From assembly GCF_024346395.1 (NCBI RefSeq), contig NZ_JAGQCW010000001.1, forward strand, positions 310,001 through 374,000: a stretch of DNA of 64,000 nucleotides, given 5' to 3'. The position numbers were made by a program, and so were the translations under genes. A model generated the notes under the pieces. That model was not told where the DNA came from. It saw nothing but the letters and a program-made list of their open reading frames with translations, and searched no databases. Below, in pieces: positions 22,776 to 27,168 of this stretch (position 1 is the first letter of the stretch; each line of letters begins with the position of its first letter). This DNA comes from Cyanobium sp. AMD-g. GTDB taxonomy: Bacteria > Cyanobacteriota > Cyanobacteriia > PCC-6307 > Cyanobiaceae.

Positions 22776-23282
22776 ATGGTGAGTGACGCCGTCAGCCTGC
22801 TGTGGATGGACCGGCTCCTGCGCCTTTCCGAGGCGGCCGGGGCCCGGGGGGAGATCCCCGTCGCAGCCGCCTTACTGGATGAGGCCGGCCGCTGCGTCGG
22901 CTGGGGCAGCAATCGTCGCCACCGACAGGCGGATCCCCTTGGCCATGCCGAACTGCTGGCCCTGCGCCAGGCTGCGGCGGCGAGGGGCGACTGGCGCTTC
23001 AACAGCTGCACCCTGCTGGTGACCCTTGAGCCCTGTCCGATGTGCGCCGGTGCCCTGATCCAGGCGCGGGTGGGCCGTGTGATCTACGCCGCCGGGGACC
23101 CCAAGCGTGGTGCCCTCGGCGGCAGCCTCGACCTCTCCAGCCACCCCAGCGCCCACCACCACATGGCGGTCAGCGGTGGGGTGAGGGGCGCGCGGGCCGG
23201 CCATCAGCTGGAGCAGTGGTTCCGGCAGCGGCGCCTGGGCCGTCAGGCGATGGCGGCGGGCACAGCGGCAGGGGACGACTGA
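22776..23282 (+). CDS. tadA: tRNA-specific adenosine deaminase
   Basis: Zinc deaminase that converts A34 to inosine in tRNA-Arg(ACG), needed to read CGN codons. The active site is complete: H57-A58-E59 (GHAELLAL) and C87/C90 (LEPCPMCAGAL). Length is 168 residues; ATG 22776 is used, with a second ATG at residue 11 (MDRLLRLSEAA) as an alternative that matches where homology begins. A guanine or cytosine deaminase is the main alternative, but the ALIQARVGRVIYAAGDPKRGA block is typical of TadA. The gene is convergent with the class V aminotransferase gene and overlaps it by 40 bases. Confidence 0.95.
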   Translation: MVSDAVSLLWMDRLLRLSEAAGARGEIPVAAALLDEAGRCVGWGSNRRHRQADPLGHAELLALRQAAAARGDWRFNSCTLLVTLEPCPMCAGALIQARVGRVIYAAGDPKRGALGGSLDLSSHPSAHHHMAVSGGVRGARAGHQLEQWFRQRRLGRQAMAAGTAAGDD

Positions 23283-24424
23283 AAGGCGGGCAGTTCGCTG
23301 GCGAAGATGTCCAGCAGGCGATCGACATTCTCCGGGGTGCTGTTGTAGCCCATCAGGCCGATGCGCCACACCTTGCCGGCCAGATCCCCGAGCCCGCCGC
23401 CCACCTCGATGCCGAAGCGATCGAGCAGATGGCGGCTGAAGGCCTTGCCGTCGACCCCCTGGGGGATGCGGACGGTGGTGAGGGTGGCCAGGCGCAGGGG
23501 CTCGCTGACATGCAGTTCAAGGCCCAGCCGCTCCAGACCGGCCCAGAGGCGCTCGGCATTGCTGCGGTGGCGCGCCCAGGCGGCCTCCAGGCCCTCTTCG
23601 GCCAGAAGCCGCAGGGCTTCGCGCATGCCGAAGTTCATGTTCACCGGTGCGGTGTGGTGATACACCCTGTCGCTGCCCCAGTACTTGTTGAGCAGGGAGA
23701 CATCGAGGTACCAGTTGGGCACCTTGCCGGAGCGGCCGGCCAGCTTGGCCTCGGCCCTCGGGCCCATCGTGAAGGGACCCAGGCCGGGAGGGCAGCTGAG
23801 CCCCTTCTGGCTGCAGCTGTAGGCCAGATCCACCTTCCAGGCATCGATGTGCAGCGGCACCGCCCCAAGCGAGGTGACGGTATCGAGCAGCAGCAGGCAG
23901 TCGTGCTGCCGGCAGAGGTCGCCGATGCCGTCCATCGGCTGACACACCCCGGTGGAGGTTTCGGCATGCACCATCGCCAGGATGGCGGGCTTGTGCGTGA
24001 TCAGGGCCGCTTCGAGCTCGGCCAGGTCAAAGGCCTCCCCCCAGGGCCGCTCGATCGTGACGACGTCGGCCCGGTAGCGGCCGGCCATGTCGACCAGGCG
24101 CTGGCCGAAGTAGCCCATCACGGCCACCAGCACCTTGTCGCCGGGCTCGATGGTGTTGGCCAGCGTGGCTTCCATGGCGGCGCTGCCGGTGCCGCTCATC
24201 GGAATGGTGAGCCGGTTATCGGTCTGCCAGGCGTAGCGGAGCAAGTCCTGCACCTCACCCATCAGCTCGATGTAGAGGGGATCGAGGTGCCCGATCGGCA
24301 TCCGTGCCAGGGCCTGCAGCACCGTGGGGTGGGCGTTGGAAGGGCCAGGGCCCAGCAGCAGCCGCTCCGGGGTGGCGATGGGATCCAGAGCGAGCCTGTG
24401 GGTGCTGCTGACGGTGGGAGGCAC
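23243..24424 (-). CDS. Class V aminotransferase (serine-pyruvate / alanine-glyoxylate type)
   Basis: PLP enzyme likely acting in photorespiratory glyoxylate handling, transferring an amino group from Ala or Ser to glyoxylate. The core includes LLGPGPSNAHPTVLQAL at the N-terminus, SGTGSAAMEATLAN, the ETSTGV motif, LLLDTVTSLG and the Schiff-base lysine in SCSQKGLSCPPG. Relatives are often mislabelled soluble hydrogenase small subunit. GTG at 24424 gives 393 residues, the family length; the longer open frame (ATG 24574) would add 50 unrelated residues reaching into apcF. It is downstream of apcF on the same strand, 61 bases away, and overlaps tadA convergently. Confidence 0.92.
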   Translation of the reverse strand: MPPTVSSTHRLALDPIATPERLLLGPGPSNAHPTVLQALARMPIGHLDPLYIELMGEVQDLLRYAWQTDNRLTIPMSGTGSAAMEATLANTIEPGDKVLVAVMGYFGQRLVDMAGRYRADVVTIERPWGEAFDLAELEAALITHKPAILAMVHAETSTGVCQPMDGIGDLCRQHDCLLLLDTVTSLGAVPLHIDAWKVDLAYSCSQKGLSCPPGLGPFTMGPRAEAKLAGRSGKVPNWYLDVSLLNKYWGSDRVYHHTAPVNMNFGMREALRLLAEEGLEAAWARHRSNAERLWAGLERLGLELHVSEPLRLATLTTVRIPQGVDGKAFSRHLLDRFGIEVGGGLGDLAGKVWRIGLMGYNSTPENVDRLLDIFASELPAFQSSPAAVPAAIA

Positions 24425-24485
24425 TGGGAGAAGAGGCAAGACCTGGCGGAGCGGCAGAAGTGATCTGAGACTAGGGAACGGCCGC

Positions 24486-25004
24486 TCAGCGGGCGCGGAC
24501 GTTGCTGGAGGAAAGGCCGCGGCAGAGGTGCTCGAAGGGAGCCCGAACCAGTCCGGTGTCCACCAGGCCGGCATCGGCCAGCATCTCGGCGATCACCTCA
24601 CCGAGCAGGGCGATGCTGCGGACGGTCGGTCCGGTGGGAACACCCAGACTCTTGTACGTGTCATCGAGGCCGTTGAGAACGCGCTCGTCGAGGATGGTGA
24701 AATCGTCGGCCACCAGGGCATAGCTGGCGTAGCGCAGGAAGTAGTCCATGTCGCGCAGACAGGCCGACAGGCGCCTGGTGGTGTAGGCGTTGCCACCGGG
24801 GAGAAGCAGCTCGGGGTCCTCAAGCCAGAGGCGCTGGGCCGCCTCGCGCACGATGACGGCCGCTTCCCGGTTGATCAGTTCGACGGCGGCGAGACGCAAC
24901 GCCGCCTGGCCGTAATAGGCATCGATCCGGTCGATCGCGGAACGATCGAAGTAGCGGCCCAGCTGGTCGTAACGACCAATCAGACCGGTGATGGCATCTC
25001 GCAT
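24486..25004 (-). CDS. apcF: Allophycocyanin beta-18 subunit
   Basis: Minor phycobilisome-core subunit that replaces one allophycocyanin beta chain in the trimer carrying the terminal emitter. The 172-residue product begins MRDAITGLIGRYD at ATG 25004 and has the phycobiliprotein globin-like fold, with the chromophore cysteine C82 in RRLSACLRDMDYFLRYASYA and the conserved Asn N72 (PGGNAYTT). The sequence ending GVPTGPTVRSI is characteristic of ApcF rather than ApcB. It depends on pcyA-made phycocyanobilin, encoded at 12.6 kb. It is divergent from the glutamine-synthetase-like gene, with about 160 bases between. Confidence 0.95.
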   Translation of the reverse strand: MRDAITGLIGRYDQLGRYFDRSAIDRIDAYYGQAALRLAAVELINREAAVIVREAAQRLWLEDPELLLPGGNAYTTRRLSACLRDMDYFLRYASYALVADDFTILDERVLNGLDDTYKSLGVPTGPTVRSIALLGEVIAEMLADAGLVDTGLVRAPFEHLCRGLSSSNVRAR

Positions 25005-25167
25005 GGACGAAACGGATCGACGCACCTGCAGCGGAAGGTAGCACTCGCAATCCGCCAGATTCCTGTCCTGCGGCTGGTTCTGGGGAATCTGACAGAAACG
25101 GTTACGCGGCCACCGGCCCGCCGGGGGGGGCACCATCGTGGCGGCAGCCTTCCCATCCACCTCCGCC

Positions 25168-26496
25168 ATGGCCACCTCCGCCCAGGACGTCCTGCGCCGC
25201 CTCGGGGAGGACGGCATCGAGCGCATCGACCTCAAGGTGAGTGACCTGCAGGGGCGCTGGCATTCGTTCGGGCTGGAGGCCGACCAGCTCGGCGAGGGGG
25301 CCTTTCAGCGGGGCCTTTGCCTCGACAGCGTTTCCTTTGACAGCGTTTCCTTCGACAGCCGTGCCAGCGGTCTGGTCCTGCATCCGGACCCTGCCACCGC
25401 CTGGATCGACCCCTTTCTCTCTCCCCGAAGCCTCAGCCTGATCGCCACGTTCGAGGTGCCGGCGGGGTCCGGGCCGAACGTCCGCCACTGCCCCCGTTCC
25501 CTGGCCGGCCGCGCCCTGGCCCTGCTGGCCGGCAGCGGCCTGGCCGATGCAGCCCGTTTCGGAGTGACGCAGGACGTTTTCCTGTTCAACGAGCTGATCT
25601 GGCACTGCAATGACCAGGGTTGTGGTTACCAGATCGCCAACGGCAGTGAGCCGCCGGAGGCGCTGGGCAACGAACTGCTGCTCACCCTGGCGGCCCTGGG
25701 CCTGCCGGCCCGCCTGCGTCAGCCGTCGCCGCCGGCCCCCCTGCTTGGGCTGAGCCTGGGGAGCGACGATCTGCTGCGGGCCGCCGATGCCCTGATGGTC
25801 AGCCGCTATGTGCTCGGTCACGTCGCCCGGCGCCACGGCTGGCGCGCCAGCCTGCTGCCGAAGCCCACGCTGGATCCCATCAGCGCTGGCCTGGCGGTGC
25901 ACCAGAGCCTCTGGAGAGCCGGCCAGCCCCTGTTCTGCGGTGCAGGCACCTATGGCGACCTGTCCCAGACCGCCCGTTGGTACCTGGGGGGGCTGCTGCA
26001 CCATGGCTGCTCCCTGGCCGCCTTCACCAACCCAGGCACCAACAGCTACCGGCGGCTGCGGAGCGGCCCCGCGGCCCCGACCCGCCTGACCTACGCCAGG
26101 AACGACCCCTCGACGGTGGTGGCGGTTGCCGACAGCGGCAGCGACCCCGACAAGCGGCGTCTGGTGCTGCGCCAGGCGGACGGGCTGGCCAATCCCTATC
26201 TGGCCCTGGCGGCGATGCTGATGGCAGGGCTCGATGGCGTGCGCCGCCAGAGCGATCCCGGCTCCCCCAGCGATCTGGAGCCCGCCGCCGACGCTGTCCC
26301 GTCAGCTGGCGCCAGCCTGCCCACCGACCTGGGCGGATCCCTGGCGGCCCTCGCCGGCGACCATGACTACCTGCTGGCCGGTGGTGTCTTCAGCCAGGAG
26401 CTGATCGAGGACTGGATCGCCCTCAAACGCCTGGAGCTGGAGGAACTGGAGCACCGGCCCCATCCCCTTGAGTTCGCCAGCGACCCCATCGCCTGA
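25168..26496 (+). CDS. Glutamine synthetase-like protein lacking catalytic residues (probable pseudoenzyme)
   Basis: The 442-residue protein follows the GS fold from start (SAQDVLRRLGEDGIERIDLK) to end (GLANPYLALAAMLMAGLDGV, DYLLAGGVF), including LSQTARWYLGG and LAAFTNPGTNSY. Nearly every catalytic motif is altered: the latch DGSS is lost, the metal-binding PExEFF is VTQDVFL, the GQHE glutamate loop is missing in a shortened region (SPPAPLLGLSLG), NGxGMHxHQS is ISAGLAVHQS, the PGxEAP flap Glu is Ala (GPAAP), NRSAxxRIP is DPSTVVAVA, and xEFR is LVLR. ATG 25168 matches where homology starts; a GTG at 25138 would add ten residues. The frame is intact and codon use normal, so it is probably expressed. 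GlnA activity is unlikely. Confidence 0.88.
   Translation: MATSAQDVLRRLGEDGIERIDLKVSDLQGRWHSFGLEADQLGEGAFQRGLCLDSVSFDSVSFDSRASGLVLHPDPATAWIDPFLSPRSLSLIATFEVPAGSGPNVRHCPRSLAGRALALLAGSGLADAARFGVTQDVFLFNELIWHCNDQGCGYQIANGSEPPEALGNELLLTLAALGLPARLRQPSPPAPLLGLSLGSDDLLRAADALMVSRYVLGHVARRHGWRASLLPKPTLDPISAGLAVHQSLWRAGQPLFCGAGTYGDLSQTARWYLGGLLHHGCSLAAFTNPGTNSYRRLRSGPAAPTRLTYARNDPSTVVAVADSGSDPDKRRLVLRQADGLANPYLALAAMLMAGLDGVRRQSDPGSPSDLEPAADAVPSAGASLPTDLGGSLAALAGDHDYLLAGGVFSQELIEDWIALKRLELEELEHRPHPLEFASDPIA
25324..25359 (+). repeat. 15-bp tandem duplication inside the GS-like gene
   Basis: GACAGCGTTTCCTTT at 25324-25338 is repeated with one change at 25339-25353 and followed by a further GACAGC. It encodes DSVSF twice (residues 53-62) exactly where normal glutamine synthetase has its latch loop, and keeps the frame. 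Confidence 0.9.
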
Positions 26497-26497
26497 C

Positions 26498-26767
26498 TCA
26501 GGGACGCAGCAGCCAGGCCAGCAGCAGCCCAAGCCCCCCCCAGCGCAGGGCCGACCAGAAACGTTCGCCATGACGGCTGCTCGGCAGCAGGCCGTCTGGG
26601 AGGGGATCCAGCAGCCTCTGGGCCAGCTCCAGCTTCTGCCGCCGCCGCCGCAGCGTCACGCCGGTGGGGGCAACGGCCCCCCGGCGGCCGGCGATGCTCA
26701 GCACCGCGGCCAGATGGTGCAGGAGTCCGGGTGGTGGTGAGCGGCGGGGGCGCTGGAGGCGGCTCAT
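26498..26767 (-). CDS. Small hypothetical protein with C-terminal hydrophobic segment
   Basis: From ATG 26767 the frame gives 89 residues: a very basic first half (RLQRPRRSP, GVTLRRRRQKLE), then a C-terminal hydrophobic stretch WGGLGLLLAWLL ending the protein, which looks like a tail anchor. It is not recognised. It lies one base from the stop of the GS-like gene (convergent), and its start is antisense to the region just before the DUF6439-like gene. A longer in-frame start (26815) exists but overlaps that gene. High local GC makes chance open frames common, so the gene is only moderately supported. Confidence 0.5.
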   Translation of the reverse strand: MSRLQRPRRSPPPGLLHHLAAVLSIAGRRGAVAPTGVTLRRRRQKLELAQRLLDPLPDGLLPSSRHGERFWSALRWGGLGLLLAWLLRP

Positions 26768-26805
26768 GGTGGCGCGATCGACAGGGCGAGGCCTGGAACG
26801 ACAGG

Positions 26806-27168
26806 ATGGGGCCACCGTGGTCCGATCGTCCAGTGGAAGCCACCAGCTCTCCAGCCGAAACGGCGTCTCCTTCCGATGCTGTGATCCCGTCGCACCGGTC
26901 GTGGCCGCCGGAGACCCTGCCCCTGGCCGAACGCCTGCATCGCCAGCTCAGCATCGGGGATCGGGACTGGCATGCCCTCAAGCACCAGCGCTCCAGGCGC
27001 GCGGCCGAACAGGTGGCGGCAGCCCTGGTTCAGCTTCTGGCCGCCGATGAACCGGCCGCCCGTGCCGACAGCGAAGGTCGGCGCAGCGCCATCGCCCTGC
27101 TGGAGAACGCCCAGGCCTGGCTGCGGGCCGAGATCAGCGATCCGGGCTGTCCGGCCCACGGCCGCTGA
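26806..27168 (+). CDS. Small cyanobacterial protein, DUF6439-like
   Basis: The 120-residue product (ATG 26806) has a variable Ser/Pro-rich start of about 40 residues and a conserved-looking helical part: LAERLHRQLSIGDRDWHALK, then AAEQVAAALVQLLA and ending AQAWLRAEISDPGCPAHGR. I recall this pattern, especially the GDRDWH motif and the CPAHGR end, from short cyanobacterial proteins classified as DUF6439; the match is from memory. There is no signal peptide or membrane segment. Its 3' end overlaps the convergent anti-sigma-type gene by 35 bases. Function unknown. Confidence 0.65.
   Translation: MGPPWSDRPVEATSSPAETASPSDAVIPSHRSWPPETLPLAERLHRQLSIGDRDWHALKHQRSRRAAEQVAAALVQLLAADEPAARADSEGRRSAIALLENAQAWLRAEISDPGCPAHGR

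Follow-up and report, generated by a model that had tools for sequence, protein, structure and literature searches.

Glutamine synthetase (GS) is the main route by which nitrogen enters cell material, and the cyanobacterial type I enzyme (GSI, GlnA) is represented structurally by that of Synechocystis PCC 6803 (3ng0). A member of the GS family that has been kept without glutamine synthesis is lengsin, a catalytically inactive protein of the vertebrate lens that is reportedly derived from class I GS. Among cyanobacteria, Pseudanabaena PCC 6903 and Synechococcus RS9917 are described (PMC4923085, PMC6316151) as having only the type III enzyme (GSIII, GlnN), to which ammonium assimilation is assigned, and a genome survey records glnA in all picocyanobacteria but the freshwater sub-cluster 5.3 (PMC9361551). 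A degenerate GlnA, or one that is dead but under selection, at its own locus in a cyanobacterium was not reported among the matches listed, which were mostly from the open literature. Here we analyzed a 64,000-nt stretch of the genome of Cyanobium sp. AMD-g (the window) that carries such a gene. Its product shares with cyanobacterial GSI the predicted fold, homology over the full length, the ancestral place and the C-terminal tail, and differs in having neither the catalytic metal site, nor about 30 residues of the central loop ahead of the metal loop (by alignment), nor a strict NtcA-type site upstream. Lengsin is likewise a GS-family protein that makes no glutamine, but in Cyanobium it is the bacterial housekeeping glnA itself that died in place, with similar decay in other lineages of the family. 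GlnN presumably assimilates ammonium here as in the GSIII-only cyanobacteria, which are reported to be without GSI, whereas this Cyanobium clade retains the gene as what appears to be a maintained dead protein.

Both GS domains of Pfam match the window protein above their curated cut-offs and together cover nearly its entire length, Gln-synt_C (PF00120) with E 1.7e-63 and 215 bits and Gln-synt_N (PF03951) with E 9e-10 and 38.5 bits, which places it in the GS fold family and bears out an earlier reading of the gene as a near full-length relative of type I GS. The best PDB match is the Synechocystis enzyme 3ng0 (E 4.1e-85). The GSIII N-terminal domain (PF12437) is absent, PF00120 and PF03951 being the only two present, and the length falls short of the roughly 700 aa of a GSIII, so the protein is not a GlnN. 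Against the NCBIfam model for active GlnA (TIGR00653) it scores 264.7 bits, below the cut-off of 429, and a canonical copy from the same genus reaches 658.7 bits; identity to 13 canonical GlnAs of the genus is 43-45%. A chance open reading frame in GC-rich DNA was ruled out by this homology and by the ratio of nonsynonymous to synonymous change (omega) per frame. A canonical GlnA above the cut-off is present in 25 of 42 genomes of the genus, and the form seen in the window, hereafter pseudo-GlnA, in 17; no genome has both and none has neither. The features of the locus are collected in Table 1.

Table 1. Features of the pseudo-glnA locus, in window positions; residues lost or kept are named by their numbers in canonical GlnA, and fractions refer to the 17 pseudo-GlnAs.
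Feature	Position	Strand	Basis or detail
Degenerate GlnA, the resident glnA without catalytic metal site	25168..26496	+	442 aa; ATG 25168, TGA 26494-26496
T134-D136, in place of metal ligands E129 and E131	25567..25575	+	alignment
Residues 185-194, in place of the HHEVATAQHE metal loop (E212, E220)	25720..25749	+	alignment
A243 (H269 lost) to H245 (H271 kept, 17/17)	25894..25902	+	alignment
Residues 257-298, tightest constraint (omega 0.05), including R296 (R321, 17/17)	25936..26061	+	codon model, alignment
A302 (flap E327 lost), P314 (R339 lost), A319 (R344 lost)	26071..26124	+	alignment
R331 (R355, 16/17), V333 (metal E357 lost), R335 (R359, 17/17)	26158..26172	+	alignment
C-terminal RPHPLEF tail; R, P, H, P, E and F invariant in all 17	26455..26475	+	alignment
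apcF-like gene, allophycocyanin beta family, 172 aa; divergent neighbor, same spot in canonical glnA loci	24486..25004	-	profile search, locus comparison
Class V aminotransferase; second neighbor, same spot in canonical loci; true start probably within the ORF	23243..24574	-	profile search, locus comparison
Small sll0565-family-like gene, convergent, downstream; 24 bits, under the NCBIfam cut-off of 50	26498..26815	-	profile search
apcF-glnA gap, 163 bp; 161-163 bp, nearly invariant across the 17 pseudo-GlnA genomes	25005..25167	.	locus comparison

Eighteen catalytic positions were compared in an alignment with 23 canonical GlnAs of the same genus and 18 of other Cyanobiaceae, with residue numbers and active-site roles that we take to follow those of Salmonella GS. 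All 41 canonical proteins carry the 18 residues and all six metal ligands. In the window protein every one of the six is replaced (E129 by T, E131 by D, E212 by S, E220 by G, H269 by A and E357 by V), as are E327 of the flap (by A), R339 (by P) and R344 (by A), leaving it without the R339/R344 pair of an active GlnA. None of the 17 pseudo-GlnAs has the full metal set; E357, H269 and E212 are gone from all of them, and the HHE..HE loop is replaced in each, the window protein having lost the HHEVATAQHE stretch. Misalignment of the metal site was ruled out by the alignment against the 41 canonical proteins, so that the ligands are lost and have not merely shifted. The list of losses given in the preliminary description (latch DGSS, PExE Glu pair, GQHE loop, active-site His, flap Glu, NRS/R loop and C-terminal metal Glu) therefore holds. 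It needs correction in detail at the flap, where GFEAP reads GPAAP in the window and 7 of the 17 relatives still have the Glu, and at the latch, where DGSS reads DSVS and D50 and S53 are still matched by D and S. Four other residues, which that description leaves out, persist in the window protein: R321, R359 and the second His, H271 (unchanged in 17/17), and R355 (16/17). This trio of invariant residues is a weak pointer to ligand binding, since only 107 of the 294 columns that are invariant in the family are unchanged in the dead form; the 18 catalytic positions, of which 3 are unchanged in all 17, were lost more readily than those columns, so the retained trio is a hint only. Thirty-four columns are invariant solely in the dead form, and 21 have been swapped for a different invariant residue. 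Newly invariant in the second half of the protein are R306, A310, R311, D313 and Q336 (17/17 each).

The reading frame is open in all 17 genomes, that of the window included (423-448 aa), and the proteins are 57-95% identical to one another, compared with 88-99.6% among the canonical GlnAs of the genus. Pairwise codon models gave omega values of 0.10-0.23 for 12 listed pairs of pseudo-GlnAs (2dlnL against omega = 1 of 32-141) and, over all 136 pairs, a median of 0.15 and a range of 0.016-0.257, with dS saturated in some pairs (up to 16.9). Canonical GlnAs gave 0.007-0.04 (eight pairs). In seven degenerate pairs, of which five belong to the pseudo-GlnA clade, omega for the other two sense frames was 1.25-5.4; the in-register antisense frame was also low (0.16-0.37), as expected because it shares third positions. 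In the absence of constraint, the spectrum of mutations at fourfold sites predicts about 73 nonsense changes across the tree, a figure inflated by saturation, and a sum restricted to seven independent pairs predicts about 28; none was observed. A few gap runs in the nucleotide alignment of the coding sequences are not divisible by three (7, 8 and 23), and since all frames are open we read these as placement artefacts. Constraint is unevenly distributed, with omega at 0.06 in residues 335-366, close to that of the tightest segment (Table 1), and at 0.41 and 0.61 in two loops; it is most relaxed in the former latch loop, around the metal strand and in the loop 367-390. Intact frames with omega below 1 are what a maintained pseudoenzyme should have, and we consider it very probable, from these comparisons of sequence, that the pseudo-GlnA is both dead and maintained. 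Both parts of this had been proposed in advance, with frame disruption and neutral evolution in other strains named as what would speak against it, and neither was seen. A dead protein kept by natural selection probably has a role other than glutamine synthesis.

The genomic context identifies the gene as the original one. The apcF and aminotransferase genes lie beside glnA in 23 of the 25 canonical loci of the genus (the other two have no upstream flank), beside all 17 pseudo-GlnA genes and beside five of five other degenerate genes; at six loci from other genera apcF was present in six and the aminotransferase in four, with a short flank examined. The sll0565-like gene abuts the window gene and is found in 23 of 25 canonical loci, often at a greater distance. 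This is the neighborhood of a canonical glnA, in line with the resemblance to other picocyanobacteria pointed out in the preliminary description, and the window gene is the resident glnA, degenerated in place and with no second copy.

Upstream, a strict NtcA-type site (GTAN8TAC) occurs within 150 bp of canonical glnA at 18 of 23 testable loci of the genus, counting two truncated genes with unsure starts (G031 and G036) and omitting two flanks that are too short (G016 and G030), and in the apcF-glnA gap of 0 of the 17 pseudo-GlnA genomes. Nitrogen control of pseudo-glnA is accordingly not evident. Loss of the site is suggestive rather than diagnostic, because just 2 of 18 canonical loci in other genera have it (some starts there being unsure). 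At glnN, none of 13 loci read has a strict site (these include 4 pseudo-GlnA and 5 canonical genomes of the genus; the start in G021 is set too far in). The gap between apcF and pseudo-glnA contains a largely conserved GGCACCATCGTGGCG stretch near the start of the gene that was not noticed in canonical upstream sequences, and which may be a new promoter or a leader of apcF. No riboswitch or other RNA of Rfam matched the window or five loci.

Since all 17 pseudo-GlnA genomes are without a canonical GlnA by profile search, the window genome included, mixed rings of the dead protein with a real GlnA, one of the roles suggested in the preliminary description, are impossible here; the second, catalytically complete glnA that it proposed to look for was not found in the window genome. 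Assembly gaps do not account for the missing enzyme, because one of the 17 genomes (G022) is a single contig. PF00120 has five matches in the window genome, namely the pseudo-GlnA, GlnN, two proteins above the TIGR03105 cut-off and one divergent relative. The GSIII marker domain of GlnN is present in 17/17 pseudo-GlnA genomes and in 22/25 canonical ones. In the window genome GlnN is a separate gene on contig C9, of the larger type (733 aa), whose product aligns end to end with the solved GSIII structure 3o6x and has intact active-site motifs. GlnN is presumably the main synthetase left and carries glutamine synthesis in the pseudo-GlnA genomes, and two GlnT-type paralogues could contribute. 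Loss of PII as a correlate was ruled out, PII being present in all 42 genomes. A short DUF4278 protein was found in 13 of 17 pseudo-GlnA and 3 of 25 canonical genomes, with none in the window genome; according to one report, DUF4278 spans the N-terminal region of IF17, an inhibitor of GS (PMC6316151). It was set aside as a lead to an inactivating factor: the two proteins read (L300 and L301) are short, at 64 and 89 aa, no riboswitch was found beside them, and the count is confounded with clade.

On a species tree of 58 genomes built from three RNA-polymerase subunits (2568 columns), the 17 pseudo-GlnA genomes form one fully supported clade within the genus, nested among GlnA-bearing species (support of the adjoining split 92). 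A pseudo-GlnA profile run against 399 sampled genomes from the order led to 14 that were followed up; three fragmentary cases (G287, G417 and G396) were not counted, G345 was not placed on the species tree, and G031 and G036 were left out of the later GlnA alignments and trees. Two further lineages have a resident glnA at apcF with an intact frame and omega of 0.20-0.24. The GlnAs of G194 and G313, 68-70% identical to canonical GlnA, represent a half-way stage: unlike the window form they lose only a subset of residues (E129, E212, E220, H269 and E327) and keep R339, R344 and E357. Those of G345, G209 and G189 are far more degenerate than the window form, R359, H271 and the C-terminal tail motif being lost as well. 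A broken remnant is found in G123 (L201; G123:C2:33262-34664), with in-frame stops, two of them flagged, and a probable frame change; from its sequence it is a true pseudogene, and a canonical glnA is present in G216, the genome that is sister to G123 on the RNA-polymerase tree. Profile searches found no GlnA in five genomes from three lineages (G119, G176, G169, G241 and G229). GlnN is present in 13 of the 14 followed-up genomes, the exception, G396, being 82% complete. No match at all to the pseudo-GlnA profile was obtained in 28 of the 399 genomes, and nine of these, Cyanobiaceae genomes at least 90% complete (G144, G237, G246, G249, G252, G253, G276, G284 and G286), again gave no GlnA with a second, broader profile, which reflects either gaps in the assemblies or additional losses. 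Within one family, a single locus thus presents canonical, half-way, dead-but-maintained, stop-broken and absent forms of glnA. Because the degenerate, broken and absent states fall in separate parts of the RNA-polymerase tree, GlnA was apparently abandoned more than once, presumably owing to the ability of GlnN to substitute. An essential enzyme can here be seen replaced, and its remains apparently reused, in living relatives.

Whether the three degenerate lineages share a single origin depends on which tree is consulted. The GlnA protein tree joins them with support of 98-99, and an AU test rejected a grouping of the pseudo-GlnAs with G194/G313 to the exclusion of the G345 group (p 0.018); a grouping of G194/G313 with the G345 group was not rejected (p 0.22). 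Individual columns point the same way as the joined tree: of 16 that distinguish the canonical GlnAs of the genus from those of genus g40, the pseudo form matches g40 in 9, its own genus in 3 and neither in 4, and of 28 that distinguish canonical GlnA from G194/G313 it matches G194/G313 in 16 and the canonical form in 3. Against a single origin, the apcF/aminotransferase and RNA-polymerase trees separate the three lineages, and a clade of pseudo-GlnAs with the canonical GlnAs of their genus was not rejected by the AU test (p 0.47; p 0.255 with the nearest canonical rows only). When each lineage was placed alone, the pseudo-GlnAs joined g40, and G194/G313 fell into a group with g40, G129 and G216; the G345 group, whose branch is saturated, attached to G244, itself a long branch on the RNA-polymerase tree. 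Changes such as NPTTNSYKRL to NPGTNSYRRL are shared among the degenerate lineages. We lean toward long-branch attraction together with parallel change as the source of the joined GlnA tree, and away from common descent; gene transfer between the lineages is another possibility.

Structure prediction was consistent with a retained fold. A first model, from an alignment of 30 sequences, had a pLDDT of 51.8, and a second reached pLDDT 85 and pTM 0.90, its ten best PDB chains all being GSI (Z 45-48); the GS fold of the second is partly built in, because its alignment included 10 canonical and 39 distant GlnAs. The C-terminal tail was badly modelled when the subunit was folded singly. Active GSI is a dodecamer of two stacked hexameric rings in which the tail of each subunit inserts into the opposite ring, and conservation of the tail thus hints that rings still form. 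With core helices, beta-grasp domain and tail all constrained, we infer that the pseudo-GlnA still adopts the GSI subunit fold and builds rings.

In the explanation that we prefer, the original glnA would have lost ammonia-ligase catalysis, presumably once GlnN could supply glutamine, and the dead GlnA would then have been retained as a non-catalytic protein at its own chromosomal place. The catalytic metals would no longer be held, the arginines that in active GlnA presumably hold the carboxylates of glutamate would remain, and the GS-fold oligomer may still bind a glutamate-like ligand or a partner protein. Because these arginines are kept and residues of the metal and phosphate sites are lost, we read the pseudo-GlnA as a possible regulator or scaffold of nitrogen metabolism that responds to a ligand or binds a partner, at a probability of roughly 0.45; sensing or partner binding is somewhat favored. 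Tight core helices with loose active-site loops would also result from fold retention alone. A GS-fold ring used as a scaffold or nitrogen store with no ligand, like lengsin, would suit the finding that constraint is high in the core of the fold and in the C-terminal tail and lower in the active-site loops, and would fit the open frames of G345, G209 and G189, where R359 and H271 are lost too. It leaves the retention of R321, R359 and H271 in 17/17 and the disappearance of the strict NtcA-type site unexplained, and we think such a bulk role unlikely. Slow loss of a gene that is still expressed, with selection acting only against toxic misfolding, is to us a doubtful alternative as well. An omega roughly ten times that of canonical GlnA would fit, as would the stop-broken and missing genes of related lineages (G123; G119, G176, G169, G241 and G229), but the 17 genomes contain no stop where at least about 28 would be expected, and the new lineage-specific invariant residues and the intact frames in three lineages that are separate on the species tree likewise speak against it.

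Catalysis of some kind is harder to reconcile with the sequence. The pocket could run a different, metal-free reaction, and the five newly invariant residues in the second half of the protein would be explained by this; chemistry in the GS family depends on the metal- and phosphate-binding residues, however, and these were lost together, so that a new enzyme appears quite improbable. That the protein still makes glutamine through a rearranged set of ligands is scarcely credible, with nothing beyond the fold in its favor and with the replaced HHE..HE loop, the loss of E357, H269 and E212 throughout and the constant presence of GlnN against it. Returning to a regulatory role, an extended version would make the old GlnA ring a dedicated sensor after the takeover by GlnN, retaining the glutamate-binding arginines and signalling nitrogen status through a partner, with the conversion made three times at its own locus in one family and the half-way stage still alive in G194/G313; we regard this as speculative and rather unlikely. 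In any case, the pseudo-GlnA offers a direct experimental test of functions of GSI besides catalysis.

These genes also bear on annotation. The half-way GlnAs (L194:1498-2871, minus strand, and L195:1501-2907, minus strand) score 507 and 501 bits, above the TIGR00653 cut-off of 429, and would therefore be labelled active enzymes by automatic annotation despite five lost catalytic residues; the genome survey cited above counts glnA as present in all picocyanobacteria but sub-cluster 5.3. The NCBI name of TIGR03105 ('type III glutamate-ammonia ligase') is likewise misleading, because both GlnT-type proteins of the window genome pass it and the true GSIII, GlnN, identified by PF12437, scores only 44 bits there. 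The two GlnT-type genes lie less than 10 kb apart and near GlnN (G000:C9:41523-50809; L001, L002, L116 and L117). In another genome, a GlnT-type gene (G025:C7:43146-44345) contains one in-frame TGA, which is either a sequencing error or a sign of decay.
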